A stretch of DNA of 64,000 nt from Staphylococcus simulans. Lineage in GTDB: Bacteria > Bacillota > Bacilli > Staphylococcales > Staphylococcaceae. How positions within the stretch are numbered: position 1 is the stretch's first letter; each line of letters starts with the position of its first letter. This document shows positions 53,187 to 61,764 of the stretch, piece by piece. The stretch is from contig NZ_MRZJ01000003.1 in assembly GCF_002994445.1 (NCBI RefSeq), forward strand, positions 1 to 64,000, given 5' to 3'. A program made the translations under genes and the position numbers. Under the pieces are notes generated by a model that was not told the DNA's origin, made no database searches, and worked only from the letters and a program-made list of their open reading frames with translations.

Positions 53187-53561
53187 TCAGATTTTAATTT
53201 CTTTGTTTGCAGTTAAGATACGTTCATTAATACGGTTTAATAACTCGTTAATTTTTTCGCGTTGTGTTGCATTCACTAAAATTAATACTGTTCTTTCATC
53301 TTGTTCGTTACGTTTTTTATCGAAGTAATCTTCTTGAGATAAATTTTTAACCGCTTTAACAACTTGTGGTTGTTTGTAGTTCAAGTGGTTAATGATATCT
53401 TTTAAGTAGTATTCCTCGTCATTTGATTGACTAAGGAAAGTTAATACTGCAAATTCCTCGAAGCTGATTGTGAATTCTTTCTTGATAATACTTTTCATTT
53501 TATCAGCATATGTCACCATTGCTAATAAATCTGATGAATTTTTAATTTTTGATACTGCCAT
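53187..53561 (-). CDS. sarA: Transcriptional regulator SarA
   Basis: SarA is the small winged-helix global regulator of staphylococci that binds AT-rich promoters, including agr. The 124-residue sequence is nearly superimposable on S. aureus SarA over residues 15-110, with [27 protein letters not shown] core and the wing residues Asp88-Glu89-Arg90. Unlike S. aureus, residue 9 is Ser, not Cys, and the protein has no Cys at all. I chose MAVSKIK (53561) behind GGGAGGAAAT; the frame is open to 53594. Confidence 0.96.
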
Positions 53562-56173: not shown

Positions 56174-58222
56174 GTGGAAATAGTTGAAGGATTACTCATA
56201 TTTATTGCGGCTATTATCCTAAGTTCATTAATACATTCACTATTTCTCCCTAAAGTCCCTTTGGCATTCATCCAAATTATTTTAGGGGCATTAATATTTG
56301 TAACACCTATTCCTGTGGCATTTGATTTTGACACAGAGGTGTTTATGGTCGCATTGATTGCGCCGCTATTATTTATTGAAGGGGTTCATGTTTCTCGTGT
56401 CGGCTTAAAACGCTACATAAAGCCAGTAATGATGATGGCTTTAGGATTAGTCTTCACTACCGTGATTGGTGTAGGCTTCTTTATTCATTGGGTTTGGCCG
56501 AGCTTGCCTATGCCTGCAGGCTTTGCGTTAGCAGCGGTATTATGTCCGACAGATGCGGTGGCAGTTTCAGCGATTACTAAAGGTAAAGTGCTGCCGAAAG
56601 GTTCTATGACGATTTTAGAAGGGGAATCGTTATTAAACGATGCCGCAGGTATCATTTCCTTCAAGATTGCGGTGGCTGCGCTGATTACCGGCGCATTTTC
56701 TATTACTGACGCAGTAGGGCAGTTCTTAGTATCTTCCATCGGCGGTTTAGTCGTTGGTTTGATTGTAGGTATTGTCTTAGTCAGATTGCGTATTATACTT
56801 GCGCGCCGCGGTGTTGAAAGTAATAACATGTTTATCTTTATTCAATTATTGACACCGTTTATTACTTATCTAGTCGCTGAAGTCTTCCATGCTTCTGGTA
56901 TTATTGCGGCTGTTGTATCCGGGTTGGTGCACGGCTTTGAACGTGATCGTATTACCCAAATCAGTACGCAGCTTCAATTAAGTTATACGCAGACATGGAA
57001 TTTATTAAGTTATGTATTAAACGGCTTTGTCTTTGTAATTTTAGGTTATATTGTGCCTGAAACAGTGAAGAATATTATACGCACAGAGCCGCAGAACCTA
57101 GTATTCTTATTAGGTACTACTGGACTTATTGCATTAGCAGTATACGTCTTTCGTTTCTTATGGGTATATGTATTATATCCTTACTTCTACTTGCCGGTCA
57201 GTCCATTCCAACGTGCAATGAACGAAGGGGATGAACAAGGTCCGGGTGAAGTTAAACCTAAGCGCAGCAAATATGCATTGGTGATGACACTTTGCGGTGT
57301 GCATGGGACAATTTCACTTGCTATCGCGTTGACATTCCCGTATATGCTGGCAGAAGATAGAACATTTATTTATCGTAATGATCTGCTCTTTATTTCTTCA
57401 GGTATGGTGATACTCAGTCTTGTAATCGCACAAGTATTGCTGCCGATTGTGACACCAATGATGAAACAAGTCAAAGTGGAAGGTATGAGTTTCAAAGAAG
57501 CGCGTATCTACATTTTAGAACAAGCAATCGAGTATTTAAGAAGCCATGCAACACCTGAAACATCATTTAAATACGGCAGTGTGATTAAAATTTATCACGA
57601 CCGTATCGCATTTATGAAAGTCTTAGATGATGATGACGAAAACTCAAAAGAGCTCGAACGCCTGCAAGGGATTGCGATTGATACAGAAACGAAGACTTTA
57701 AATGAATTAGTTAAAGAAGGCAAAATTACGCAAAGTGATTTTGATAACTATATGCGTTATGCAGAACGTACACAAGTATATCGTCAAGCTTCTTTAATCC
57801 GAAGAATGATTATGCGTATTAAAGTAGCTATCTTAAGACGCCGTGTCCGCGTTCAAACTAACGCTGCATCTTCATTAGATGTACAACAAAACTTAAAAGA
57901 AATCTCTAAAATTATGCGTATTGTGCATTATAACGTCGTTAAACGCTTAACCAAAGAAGCCAATGCTGACAACAAATTAGAAATCAGTACCATTTGCGAC
58001 AGTTACTTAATGCGTACGGATAATTTAACATCATCGAATCTCTTCAATTACAAGAAGTTCAATCCGAACAATATTACAAAAATCAAACTAAATGCGTTGC
58101 GTGAACAACGCCATATCCTCAATGAATTAGTAGAAGACGGAGAAGTAAGTGAAAAAACTGCACTAAAAATCCGACAAGCCATCAACTATGATGAAATGGT
58201 GTTAGTAGATCGATTGACGTAA
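56174..58222 (+). CDS. CPA1 family Na+/H+ antiporter
   Basis: A large monovalent cation/proton antiporter of 682 residues. The N-terminal 400 residues contain about twelve membrane helices with the CPA1 transport motifs LCPTDAVAVSAIT and ESLLNDAAGIISFKIAV (Asn-Asp pair). The C-terminal 270 residues are a soluble, charged cytoplasmic domain, the form seen in Firmicutes NhaP-type proteins. It exports sodium or potassium. The start is GTG behind AGAGGTGACG. Confidence 0.88.
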   Translation: MEIVEGLLIFIAAIILSSLIHSLFLPKVPLAFIQIILGALIFVTPIPVAFDFDTEVFMVALIAPLLFIEGVHVSRVGLKRYIKPVMMMALGLVFTTVIGVGFFIHWVWPSLPMPAGFALAAVLCPTDAVAVSAITKGKVLPKGSMTILEGESLLNDAAGIISFKIAVAALITGAFSITDAVGQFLVSSIGGLVVGLIVGIVLVRLRIILARRGVESNNMFIFIQLLTPFITYLVAEVFHASGIIAAVVSGLVHGFERDRITQISTQLQLSYTQTWNLLSYVLNGFVFVILGYIVPETVKNIIRTEPQNLVFLLGTTGLIALAVYVFRFLWVYVLYPYFYLPVSPFQRAMNEGDEQGPGEVKPKRSKYALVMTLCGVHGTISLAIALTFPYMLAEDRTFIYRNDLLFISSGMVILSLVIAQVLLPIVTPMMKQVKVEGMSFKEARIYILEQAIEYLRSHATPETSFKYGSVIKIYHDRIAFMKVLDDDDENSKELERLQGIAIDTETKTLNELVKEGKITQSDFDNYMRYAERTQVYRQASLIRRMIMRIKVAILRRRVRVQTNAASSLDVQQNLKEISKIMRIVHYNVVKRLTKEANADNKLEISTICDSYLMRTDNLTSSNLFNYKKFNPNNITKIKLNALREQRHILNELVEDGEVSEKTALKIRQAINYDEMVLVDRLT

Positions 58223-58230
58223 TTTAAAAC

Positions 58231-58276
58231 AGCAGCAGTGTGCCGTAAACCAACGAGTACACTGCTGCTCTTTTTA
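58231..58276 (+). terminator. Terminator after the antiporter
   Basis: AGCAGCAGTGT (58231-58241) and ACACTGCTGCT (58259-58269) are perfect 11-bp arms with a T run. Confidence 0.9.
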
Positions 58277-58291
58277 TGCAAAAAATAAAAA

Positions 58292-58483
58292 AAGCGACAG
58301 CACTTCTGCACTGTCGCTTCGAAAATCGATGTCATCGCAAAGCACCGATTTTCTTAAGGAATTGTGGTCCAGTGGGAGGAAAGACCACAGCTATTTATGT
58401 TTAGGATAGATTATTTATGGACCATCAGAAATGGTATGGACATACTAGGAGGTCTTTTCTGATGGTTGAAAGGATAAATTAGT
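58292..58483 (-). ncRNA. Structured mntABC 3' UTR, candidate RsaC-like small RNA
   Basis: On the minus strand the mntC stop is followed by four stem-loops in 190 bases: ACCATCAGAAA/TTTCTGATGGT (58466-58421), TGTGGTC/GACCACA (58389-58363), GAAAATCG/CGATTTTC (58353-58321), and AAGCGACAG/CTGTCGCTT (58319-58292) with a T run, a standard terminator. The first two loops carry CCTCCT and TTTCCTCCCACTG, complementary to Shine-Dalgarno sequences. In S. aureus the mntABC 3' UTR releases the small RNA RsaC, which is far longer. This compact version is an inference. Confidence 0.7.
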
Positions 58484-59413
58484 TTACTTCATACTTTTAT
58501 GGACAGTTTCAATATTAGATTCCATCATTTTGTAATAAGAATCGCCTTTACTGCCTTTTTTTCCAATAGAGTCTGTATAGACTTCTCCTGAAATAGGAAT
58601 GCCTGTTTCTTCGCTCAAGCTTTTCATGCTTTTATGATCGACGCTTGTTTCGACTAATAGATTTTTCAATTTGTGATCTTTAACGAATTGAATAGCTTGT
58701 TTCATTTGTTCAGGTGTACCTTGTTTTTCAGTGTTGATTTCCCAAATATAGCCGGGAGTAATGCCGTATTGTTTTGAGAAATATTTAAATGCGCCTTCGC
58801 TTGTAATCATCGCACGCTGTTCTTTAGGAATGTCATTAAATTTATTGTTGCTTTCTTTATTTAATTGTTTAAGTTTCGAGATATAGGCATCACCTCGTTT
58901 GTCGTAATCTGCTTTGTGTGCTTTATCGTGCTGACTTACAGCTTGTTGAATATTTTCGACGTATTTGATGCCGTTGTTAAGACTTAACCAAGCATGCGGA
59001 TCTTGTTTAGATGCATCACCTTTTGCACCGTTCAGATAAATCGGTTGAACGCCTTTAGAAACGCGTACGACACTGTCATCTTTTGTTGTTTTGCCAGCTT
59101 GTTCTAAAGCTTTGTTGAACCAGCCGTTGCCTGTTTCAAGATTAAGTCCGTTGTAGAGGATAATATCGGCATCTGTTAAGGCTTTGATATCTTTAGGTTT
59201 GACCTCATATTCATGGGGGTCTTGGCCGATAGGAACAATGCTATGTATCTCTGCATGGTCCCCAACTACATTGTCTGCCATGTCATATAGTATTGAATTG
59301 GTTGTGACGATTTTTAATTTATGATCAGAATCTGCTGATTTTGAATCTTTGCCTGTGCCGCAAGCTGCTAAGAGTAAGAGCATTATTGCTAACAAGGGTA
59401 CTAATTTTTTCAT
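58484..59413 (-). CDS. mntC: Manganese ABC transporter substrate-binding lipoprotein
   Basis: MntC captures Mn(II) outside the membrane. The lipobox LLAAC gives Cys18. The metal ligands are recognisable as GQDPHEYE (His), DPHAWLS (His), TSEGAFKYF (Glu) and VYTDSIG (Asp), the cluster A-I pattern. The 309-residue start at 59413 is the normal one; the open frame upstream lies in mntB. The ATGA overlaps mntB by four bases. It also shares strong similarity with S. aureus MntC throughout. Confidence 0.96.
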   Translation of the reverse strand: MKKLVPLLAIMLLLLAACGTGKDSKSADSDHKLKIVTTNSILYDMADNVVGDHAEIHSIVPIGQDPHEYEVKPKDIKALTDADIILYNGLNLETGNGWFNKALEQAGKTTKDDSVVRVSKGVQPIYLNGAKGDASKQDPHAWLSLNNGIKYVENIQQAVSQHDKAHKADYDKRGDAYISKLKQLNKESNNKFNDIPKEQRAMITSEGAFKYFSKQYGITPGYIWEINTEKQGTPEQMKQAIQFVKDHKLKNLLVETSVDHKSMKSLSEETGIPISGEVYTDSIGKKGSKGDSYYKMMESNIETVHKSMK

Positions 59414-60246
59414 GATGTAACTCCTTTTTTGATTTTGAGAGCGCATTTAGAATAGATAAATGTACCGATATAAATCGCAAATGCACACAAAACAATAGTT
59501 GCACCGCTTGGAATGTTATAAATATAGCTGAAATACATTCCGACGATTGCACTGATGACACTGAAAAGGCTGGCGACAATCATCATAGACCATAATTTCT
59601 TGGTAACGAGAAAGGCGCTGGATGCCGGTGTAATCAAGAGTGCAACGACTAAAATGATTCCTACTGTTTGAATACTTGCGACTGTCACAAGTGACAAGAG
59701 CAACATGACAAAATAGTGGATGAAAGTTGTGTTTAAACCGCTCATTCTACTAAACGTCGGATCAAAAGTAGAAATCATCAATGGGCGGTAGAAAATGATG
59801 ATAAGCAAGAGGACAATAACGCTGACAATAATGGTTGACCAGTATGCTGTTTTGGTAATCGCTAGCAAATTACCGAAAAGAATATGGTACAAGTTCGTTG
59901 TACTATTGATCAGACTGATAATAATGACCCCGACCGCTAAAAATGCTGTAAAGCTGATACCAATCGCTGCATCTTGTTTTGTCTTGCTTCTATCAGAGAT
60001 AAATCCGATAAAAAGACTGGCTAACATTCCTGTGACTAAAGCTCCGACAAACATTGGAATGTTGAAAAGGAATGAAAGTGCAACGCCAGGCAATACAGCA
60101 TGGCTCATCGCATCACCCATGAGCGACAATCCTCTTAATACAATCAGACTGCCGACTGTTCCGCACACAATGCCGACACATATGGAGATGATTAAAGCAC
60201 GGTTTAAGAATTGATATTGTGTGAGTTGTTGTATAAATTCGAACAT
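59410..60246 (-). CDS. mntB: Manganese ABC transporter permease
   Basis: MntB forms the channel for Mn(II). It has 278 residues and about eight membrane helices, with the ABC-3 family hallmarks RGLSLMGDAMSHAVLPGVAL near residue 38 and VALLITPASSAFLV later. It is the second gene of mntABC, 22 bases after mntA and overlapping mntC by four. Confidence 0.95.
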   Translation of the reverse strand: MFEFIQQLTQYQFLNRALIISICVGIVCGTVGSLIVLRGLSLMGDAMSHAVLPGVALSFLFNIPMFVGALVTGMLASLFIGFISDRSKTKQDAAIGISFTAFLAVGVIIISLINSTTNLYHILFGNLLAITKTAYWSTIIVSVIVLLLIIIFYRPLMISTFDPTFSRMSGLNTTFIHYFVMLLLSLVTVASIQTVGIILVVALLITPASSAFLVTKKLWSMMIVASLFSVISAIVGMYFSYIYNIPSGATIVLCAFAIYIGTFIYSKCALKIKKGVTS

Positions 60247-60268: not shown

Positions 60269-60985
60269 CTATAGTGTCTTAGGTGCCTGATTCATGAATG
60301 TCTCATTTAAACGTTCTGTGGTCATTGCATCTTTACTTGGTCCGAAGTAGCGCAATGTTTGGTTTAATAAAATAATGCGGTCAAAGTAGGTTGTCGCCTT
60401 TGATAAGTCATGATGTACGATTAAGATTAATTTGCCTTTTGCTTTTAATGCTTCAATCTTCTCCATAATCAATTGTTCGCTAGTGAAGTCGATGCCGACA
60501 AAAGGTTCATCTAATAAGTATAGGCTGCTTGTTGTCATTAAAGCACGAGCGACTAAGACACGCTGCAATTGACCGCCGCTGAGTTGGGAAATCTGACGTT
60601 TTCTTAAATGCGTCAGCTGCATGTCTTCTAAAAGTGCTGTTAAACGTTGTTTGATGGTTGAAGAAGGGCGTTTAAACCATCCGATATCCTTATAGGCACC
60701 AGATAAGACAACACCTTCAACATCGATAGGAAAATCTAAATCTAAGTAAGCTTTTTGCGGTATGTATGTAATATTCTTCAGTTGTGTCTCGATGGGTCGG
60801 TTATCCAGCAAACGCTGACCTTGTGATTTGAATTCTCCGATTAACGCTTTAATAAGTGATGATTTACCTGCACCGTTCGGACCGATAATGCCGATAATCT
60901 CACCATGAGTCGGAATAGATAAGCTGATGTTGTGAAGTACATGCTTATTTCCTAAGTGTAAATCTAAATTTTTAATTTCTAACAA
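60269..60985 (-). CDS. mntA: Manganese ABC transporter ATPase
   Basis: The ATP-binding subunit of the Mn(II) importer. The Walker A motif GPNGAGKSS (about 35-43), the signature LSGGQLQRV and Walker B LYLLDEPF are present. A TTG at 60985 is the likely start because AGGAGG ends seven bases upstream (238 residues); a GTG at 60991 in frame nearly touches that site. It is the first gene of mntABC and lies behind the MntR-type operator. Confidence 0.95.
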   Translation of the reverse strand: MLEIKNLDLHLGNKHVLHNISLSIPTHGEIIGIIGPNGAGKSSLIKALIGEFKSQGQRLLDNRPIETQLKNITYIPQKAYLDLDFPIDVEGVVLSGAYKDIGWFKRPSSTIKQRLTALLEDMQLTHLRKRQISQLSGGQLQRVLVARALMTTSSLYLLDEPFVGIDFTSEQLIMEKIEALKAKGKLILIVHHDLSKATTYFDRIILLNQTLRYFGPSKDAMTTERLNETFMNQAPKTL

Positions 60986-61008
60986 TACCACACCTCCTAA
61001 AATAATTT

Positions 61009-61022
61009 TTAGGCTAACCTAA
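61009..61022. promoter_or_regulatory. MntR/DtxR-type operator
   Basis: TTAGGCTAACCTAA has TTAGG...CCTAA inverted arms and agrees with half of the DtxR-family box consensus. It overlaps the predicted transcription start of mntABC and lies between mntA and the divergent mntR. Confidence 0.75.
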
Positions 61023-61030
61023 TTTATTTC

Positions 61031-61059
61031 ATAATAAGTCATGAATTTTCGCTTGTCAA
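61031..61059 (-). promoter_or_regulatory. mntABC promoter
   Basis: On the minus strand, TTGACA (61059-61054), exactly 17 bases and TATTAT (61036-61031). The operator follows immediately downstream. Confidence 0.75.
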
Positions 61060-61110: not shown

Positions 61111-61764
61111 ATGTTAACGGAAGAAAAGGAAGATTACCTAAAAGCGATTTTGAATAATGGCGGCGCAACTTCATTCGTTACAAACAAACAACTCTCTCGG
61201 TATTTAAATATTAAACCCCCATCCGTGAGTGAGATGGTCAATCGTTTGGAAAAAGCGGGCTATGTGACTACGAAACCTTATAAAGGTGTTAAATTATCTG
61301 AAGAAGGTTTTAATCATACATTAGAGATTATTAAACGCCATCGCTTATTGGAACTTTTCTTAATCGAAATATTGAAGTACAACTGGGAAGAAGTGCATCA
61401 AGAAGCAGAGGTATTAGAACATCGTGTATCGGATTTATTTGTAGAACGTTTAGATGCACTGTTGAATTATCCGACAACCTGTCCGCATGGCGGTGTGATT
61501 CCGCGCGACGGCAATTTCGAGGAGATTTATAATCTTTCATTGAAGGAATTTGAAGCTGGAGATCGTGTAACTATCAGACGTGTCCGAGACCGTACTAAAT
61601 TATTGATTTATCTCTCAAGCAAATCTATTTCTATCGGTGATGAAGTCACAGTAGCATCACGTGATGACACTAACCAAGTCATTGCGATTCAAAAAGGTGA
61701 AGATCCGTTGATTATCTTAAGTTATGAAAATGCTGATCACATTTTTGGTGAGAAAATAGATTAA
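61111..61764 (+). CDS. mntR: Manganese-responsive repressor MntR (DtxR family)
   Basis: MntR senses Mn(II) and represses mntABC. The protein has 217 residues: an N-terminal winged helix with KPPSVSEMVNRLEKAGYV, the metal-binding and dimer domain with RHRLLELFLIE and EEVHQEAEVLEHRVSDLF, and a C-terminal SH3-like domain, which Bacillus MntR lacks. ATG 61111 follows AAGGAACGGTGA. It is divergent from mntABC across the operator. Confidence 0.95.
   Translation: MLTEEKEDYLKAILNNGGATSFVTNKQLSRYLNIKPPSVSEMVNRLEKAGYVTTKPYKGVKLSEEGFNHTLEIIKRHRLLELFLIEILKYNWEEVHQEAEVLEHRVSDLFVERLDALLNYPTTCPHGGVIPRDGNFEEIYNLSLKEFEAGDRVTIRRVRDRTKLLIYLSSKSISIGDEVTVASRDDTNQVIAIQKGEDPLIILSYENADHIFGEKID

Follow-up and report, generated by a model that had tools for sequence, protein, structure and literature searches.

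A compact mntABC 3′ UTR module in Staphylococcus simulans resembles RsaC and carries a linker predicted to pair with sodA

The closest described counterpart of the RNA studied here is RsaC of Staphylococcus aureus, which likewise lies in the 3′ UTR of mntABC. In S. aureus, RsaC is reported to serve manganese sparing (excerpts of PMC12421985), and the start-codon region of sodA has been reported to be bound by it (excerpts of PMC7308464). According to passages of PMC8334554 and PMC9438474, its 5′ part is variable and contains repeats, and its length is 584-1116 nt; a sequence-only reading of our locus had put RsaC at around 1 kb. In passages of PMC9438474, RNase III is said to release RsaC at a double-stranded structure, and the RNase III paper of Lioliou (2012) contains no occurrence of RsaC, mntABC or mntC. 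Reviews describe RsaC as conserved between S. aureus and S. argenteus (PMC9438474, in part) and say that only S. aureus and closely related strains acquired rsaC and sodM (PMC9294342, in part). Among the matches listed, which do not extend to the conservation analysis of the primary RsaC study, there was no report of an RsaC counterpart in other species.

Two other RNAs show some likeness. IsrR, the staphylococcal iron-sparing RNA, is conserved in the genus and has C-rich unpaired regions and a metal-sparing logic (excerpts of PMC9410917), but its targets differ from those predicted here. s-SodF of Streptomyces coelicolor is also derived from a 3′ UTR and, when metal is short, pairs with a superoxide dismutase message in its 5′ region (excerpts of PMC9438474); however, it derives from the sodF message, responds to nickel shortage and belongs to another group of organisms.

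We analysed a stretch of 64,000 nt from a S. simulans contig (NZ_MRZJ01000003.1), hereafter the window, with the following features around the mntABC operon:

53187-53561, minus strand: sarA (NF038268, 224 bits, over cut-off), predicted second target through pairing of H2 with its start site
56174-58222: Na+/H+ antiporter gene, convergent
58287-58320, minus strand: intrinsic terminator with T-run (hairpin 58320-58291; 13-pair stem, 6 G-C)
58292-58483, minus strand: whole mntABC 3′ UTR module of H1, linker, H2, H3 and terminator (fold z −5.9)
58321-58353, minus strand: hairpin H3, with the clade-invariant TGCGATGA at its tip (fold and clade alignment)
58363-58389, minus strand: hairpin H2, with UCCUCCC in its loop (fold; best predicted partner sarA)
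58390-58420, minus strand: unpaired linker between H1 and H2
58399-58427, minus strand: predicted sodA-pairing stretch; its perfectly matched 12-base core (58409-58420) lies in the linker
58421-58466, minus strand: hairpin H1, with loop ACCUCCUA at 58453-58446 (fold and compensated pairs)
58484-59446, minus strand: mntC, manganese-binding lipoprotein (NF047355, 577 bits, over cut-off)
59410-60246, minus strand: mntB, permease (PF00950)
60269-60991, minus strand: mntA, ATP-binding subunit (PF00005, scanned part 60269-60964; start probably TTG near 60985)
61009-61059, minus strand: promoter-like pair, TTGACA from 61059 and TATTAT ending at 61031 (11/12 match), together with a palindrome
61022-61009, minus strand: the MntR-type palindrome TTAGGTTAGCCTAA at the promoter-like pair
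61111-61764, plus strand: mntR, divergent DtxR/MntR-type regulator (PF01325, PF02742 and PF04023, over cut-off)

The module begins directly 3′ of the mntC stop codon (58484-58486) and, read on the minus strand, consists of H1, H2, H3 and an intrinsic terminator. The four stem-loops ending in a terminator that had been proposed from the sequence were confirmed, as the UTR (58483-58292) reaches a folding energy of −56 kcal/mol, compared with −32.5 on average for its shuffles (z −5.9, 0/200 shuffles as good). Folded alone, H1 and H2 reached z −3.5 (1/200 shuffles as good) and −3.6 (0/200), respectively. Equally, the C-rich motifs were found in the first two loops, CCUCCU in H1 and UCCUCCC in H2, with mean unpaired probabilities of CCUCC of 0.92 and 1.0. 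With 42 CCTCC on both strands of the window, 0.06 would be expected per 192 nt of single strand, and the UTR has two. The sodA-pairing stretch (UTR nucleotides 64-92) had an average unpaired probability of 0.87. The TGCGATGA of H3 is constant in eight genomes of the S. simulans clade, and the terminator loop of S. aureus RsaC reads CCGAUGUCAU.

On the other side of the terminator, an inverted repeat, CAGCAGTGT/ACACTGCTG, lies at about 58206-58289 before the end of the convergent antiporter gene. We had considered a terminator common to the UTR and this gene, but the hairpin on the antiporter side (about 58229-58289) is separate and the idea was dropped.

Control of the module by manganese is probable, given the MntR-type palindrome at the promoter and the adjoining mntR. 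We take the palindrome to be a candidate MntR box. The mntR product also matched the NCBIfam MntR models, below their cut-offs. A promoter of its own for the RNA was considered and dropped, as the minus strand of the UTR showed no promoter-like match; the RNA would therefore be made together with the operon.

We then compared the module with RsaC. An Rfam scan of the window gave no match at gathering score, and for RsaC (RF01818) no match was obtained around the locus (57900-58900) at E ≤ 10; the S. aureus locus L010 (genome G006), taken as control, was recognised with 558.7 bits, the gathering score being 100. The loci L006, L014 and L030 had no match to RF01818 at E ≤ 0.1. In S. aureus, the RF01818 model spans the linker (positions 316-330, unpaired in the Rfam structure), H2 and the terminator, while H1 lies outside it, with its end some 340 nt upstream of the model start. 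Between H1 and the linker, L010 harbours 133-nt repeats, as described for the variable 5′ part of RsaC.

Like the RNA in the window, RsaC combines an upstream hairpin with a CCUCC loop, an unpaired AUAAAUAAUC complementary to sodA, a hairpin with a UUCCUCCCC loop and a terminator. In contrast to RsaC, the RNA in the window is 192 nt long, has no 133-nt repeats (for which there is no room) and no covariance-model match, and it has the extra hairpin H3 and a host with a single Fe/Mn superoxide dismutase. The earlier assignment to an RsaC type holds for position, C-rich loops and the predicted link to sodA, and would extend to the probable manganese control, but not to membership in RF01818. From its sequence, the module looks like a compact RNA that would work like RsaC outside this family.

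To follow the module in relatives, a covariance model of the form found in the window (R2) was searched against 84 genomes of the genus and matched eight of them, including its three training rows, in all cases directly after mntC (E ≤ 1.8e-5). Ten further weak matches at E ≤ 1, with E between 0.03 and 0.95, lay elsewhere (nine of them in other genomes and one at a second place in G064) and were left out of the count. Aligning the clade with MAFFT alone for RNAalifold misaligned the hairpins, and a model-guided alignment, which leans towards its own structure, was used instead (eight rows, six distinct; a spurious ninth was left out). In this alignment, all 11 pairs of the H1 stem vary, 10 of them changed on both sides, with 100% of cells paired, while 6/8 pairs of the H2 stem are invariant. 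None of 500 shuffles reached the covariation score, the paired cells or the doubly changed cells; the number of doubly changed pairs was reached in 15/500 and that of pair types in 270/500. Across the eight genomes, neither the loop core ACCUCCUA nor the linker CCAUAAAUAAUCUAUCCUAAACAUAAAUA changes, save for a 7-base insertion in one. Both CCTCC loops, whose lack of conservation would have spoken against the earlier reading, are kept in 8/8 genomes, and four of these have a third CCUCC in the terminator loop. A small protein encoded in the UTR was also considered; the compensated stem changes speak against it.

Outside this clade, the xylosus, equorum, cohnii, nepalensis, gallinarum and pettenkoferi groups have H1, linker and H2 after mntC within about 120-130 nt. 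Here the linker starts with CAAGCC or CAAAGCC, and H2 contains UCCUCC plus further C. An alignment of this form (A3) comprised 26 sequences (23 distinct) out of 29, leaving out the near copies L020 and L046 as well as L084, which has a long H1 loop. Compensated changes were found in 12/31 pairs, with 0/500 shuffles as good (23/500 for pair types), and slid structures yielded 0 to 2. The H1 loop CCUCCU is present in 22/26 of these sequences and absent from L034, L052, L053 and L079; C-rich loops like those of the window thus recur in other groups, though not in all.

The corresponding hairpin-linker-hairpin model (R1), trained on 26 genomes, matched 42/84 genomes at E ≤ 0.1, 16 of them outside the training set, on the right strand and 31-326 nt after mntC. 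Echoes on the opposite strand and two more weak matches (G034 and G035, without a sodA-like linker, as seen for G034) were not counted. A wider family search of 108 genomes returned the same 42, confined to one genus of five. In G056, the R1 match lies 640 nt ahead of the H1 that the pattern search identified, and it may be due to chance. In the S. aureus complex, R1 scored about 36 bits on H1 alone, with H2 hundreds of bases further on. The UTR of the window reached at best 6.3 bits with R1, at the right place, and unrelated hairpins nearby scored 16.1 and 11.5. As the window's clade has no R1 match, the common ancestry suggested for the two forms is based on order, loops and linker rather than on model score. 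Of the 84 genomes, 34 had no match to either model, S. borealis, S. pragensis, S. intermedius and S. agnetis among them. In two of these 34, the parts were found by pattern. Whether the module is a minimal core or a distinct RNA, as had been asked, can be put more sharply: the series of hairpin, sodA linker and hairpin is met again downstream of mntC in many staphylococci.

Next we examined the pairing with sodA. The start-codon region of sodA has a perfect 12-base complement in the linker in 8/8 clade genomes, and the duplex of the window's linker with sodA (−20 to +9) was predicted at −22.7 kcal/mol, with linker duplexes of −20.8 to −23.8. This region is near-constant in the genus, with TTAGGAGGATGATTATTTATGGC exact in 61/84 genomes (reverse complement GCCATAAATAATCATCCTCCTAA). 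The linker of the window, CCATAAATAATC-TATCC-TAAAC, follows this reverse complement, as do those of S. aureus (AAGCTATAAATAATCGC), S. caprae (AAGCCACAAATAATCAC), pettenkoferi (AAGCCTAGATAATCTC) and xylosus (AAGCCTTAAATCATCTCCCTAA). The GATTATTTATG form of sodA was found in 47/50 genomes matching R1 or R2 versus 15 of the 34 others (Fisher 4e-7, uncorrected for kinship; the linker was found by pattern in two of these 34).

For a broader comparison, the linker was defined by its position between H1 and H2 in the 46 genomes in which the 3′ arm of H1 and the H2 loop were found by pattern, so that 38 of the 84 genomes fell outside this test. Against a background of 171 start sites, taken from one genome with a simple ORF caller, sodA ranked first in 25/46 genomes and among the top nine in 45/46 (median rank 1); the sole exception was G056 with rank 39. 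Outside the clade of the window, where sodA was first in 17/38 and in the top nine in 37/38 genomes, the test is less affected by the linker having been spotted in the clade beforehand, which makes the clade itself no independent test; nor are the genomes independent of one another. Shuffled linkers equalled the real ones in at most 10/1000 cases for 38/46 genomes, and reversed linkers gave a median sodA rank of 81. In the clade of the window, the reversed linker also ranked 2-16/171, with duplexes 3.6 to 11.4 kcal/mol weaker, showing that A+T-richness contributes.

When the Shine-Dalgarno sequence was removed from the sodA target, the best site within up to 1300 nt was the linker in 35/46 genomes (1.4 expected by length) and lay elsewhere in 11/46; shuffles of this target matched the clade pairings in 3 to 14 of 200. 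This search took in 83 genomes, without G033, whose best mntC match is not a close one (E 5.6e-22). Two close mntC copies are present in G051 (L035 and L085), and the second, L085, was left out.

The loops behaved differently from the linker, with median sodA ranks of 12.5 (H1, n=52) and 38 (H2, n=46) of 171, and the view that sodA specificity lies in the CCUCC loops was rejected. The idea that the C-rich loops block ribosome-binding sites is retained insofar as they are predicted to pair with start sites generally; sodA specificity belongs to the linker. These ranks indicate that the loops are generic anti-Shine-Dalgarno sequences and that the linker is the predicted sodA-directed part. In the window genome, the UTR taken as a whole placed sodA only 17th of 171 when duplex energy was the measure, and 23rd when a crude correction for accessibility was included.

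We consider it likely that the mntABC 3′ UTR is a compact manganese-sparing RNA which, by predicted pairing, blocks sodA translation through its linker. From the structure, covariation, conservation, position and sodA complementarity computed here, we infer its expression, its control by MntR, its processing and the repression of sodA. When manganese is scarce, MntR would leave its operator and the UTR RNA would be made along with the importer. The unpaired linker would then pair with sodA over its Shine-Dalgarno and start-codon region and block translation, in agreement with the reported binding of RsaC around the sodA start codon; less manganese superoxide dismutase would be made and scarce manganese would be saved. 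H1 may have a structural role and is a candidate RNase III release site, and the CCUCC loops of H1 and H2 may provide secondary anti-Shine-Dalgarno contacts, H2 perhaps being aimed at sarA.

The strong terminator, and the simple hairpin that some relatives seem to carry alone after mntC, would also be in line with hairpins that merely terminate the mntABC message and stabilise its 3′ end, with loops and linker idle in trans. We regard this as unlikely, since a stabiliser requires stems but neither constant loops nor a constant unpaired linker. The H1 stem has been rewritten by compensation, yet its loop core is kept and the linker is near-constant, which we count in favour of the linker acting on sodA, and the match between linker and sodA is above background in 45/46 genomes.

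It is similarly improbable that the RNA acts in trans mainly on sarA or another gene, with the sodA match being secondary. Of the 171 start sites, that of the window's own sarA formed the strongest duplex with the complete UTR (second by the crude corrected score); sarA is named among the RsaC targets in S. aureus (excerpts of PMC9266662), and its start site GGGAGGAAA is complementary to UUUCCUCCC of H2 (−30.6 kcal/mol). The sarA sites were obtained for 62/84 genomes, of which 46 were used. The H2-sarA pairing ranked 1-7 of 170 in 8/8 clade genomes, but its median rank was 18 over the 46 genomes and 34 in four genomes of the S. aureus complex, and outside the clade shuffled H2 sequences often did as well. 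Moreover, H2 has to open its own stem to pair with sarA, and sodA exceeds sarA in breadth across genomes. The predicted sarA pairing is a lead, strongest in the clade. Finally, it is very unlikely that the loops work in cis or target their own transporter operon through feedback on mntA translation: the H1 loop is predicted to pair with the mntA ribosome-binding site (60980-61000, minus strand) at −15.1 kcal/mol, but its rank of 12/172 is unremarkable (48 for the linker, 71 for H2). The loops are predicted to pair with start sites generally.

Returning to sodA repression through the linker, a search with PF02777 found one Fe/Mn superoxide dismutase in the window genome, as in 80/84 genomes; a second one is present only in G004, G006, G059 (S. 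schweitzeri) and G066. Repressing the sole Fe/Mn enzyme during manganese limitation fits manganese sparing. By sequence comparison, S. aureus RsaC looks like an expanded form of the module. We lean towards the view that RsaC was no invention of S. aureus, but that an older compact manganese-sparing RNA (H1, sodA antisense linker, H2) exists across much of Staphylococcus and represses the only Fe/Mn dismutase of most hosts; repeats would have expanded it in the S. aureus line, and sodM would have arisen later as a substitute. Our data point to a module far wider than in the S. aureus-only view of reviews, and older than sodM. The order of events, with repression of the manganese enzyme first and the substitute enzyme later, thereby becomes testable, and the 190-nt version of the S. 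simulans clade would allow the working parts of a large, awkward RNA to be dissected. The focus also moves from the C-rich loops to the unpaired antisense linker.

Two observations concern antisense matches beyond the module. G008 (S. borealis; L031) and G032 (L033) lack H1 and H2 and have, just after mntC, 12-13 bases of perfect antisense to the sodA Shine-Dalgarno region. The exact 12-base target occurs in four copies in the window genome, one being the complement of the UTR itself. Only two copies coincide with a start codon, the one in sodA and a further one at a likely start codon. The latter (L256, G000:C1:79792-79803) precedes a short ORF beginning MAKSNNFLKAVLG, which looks YtxH-like.
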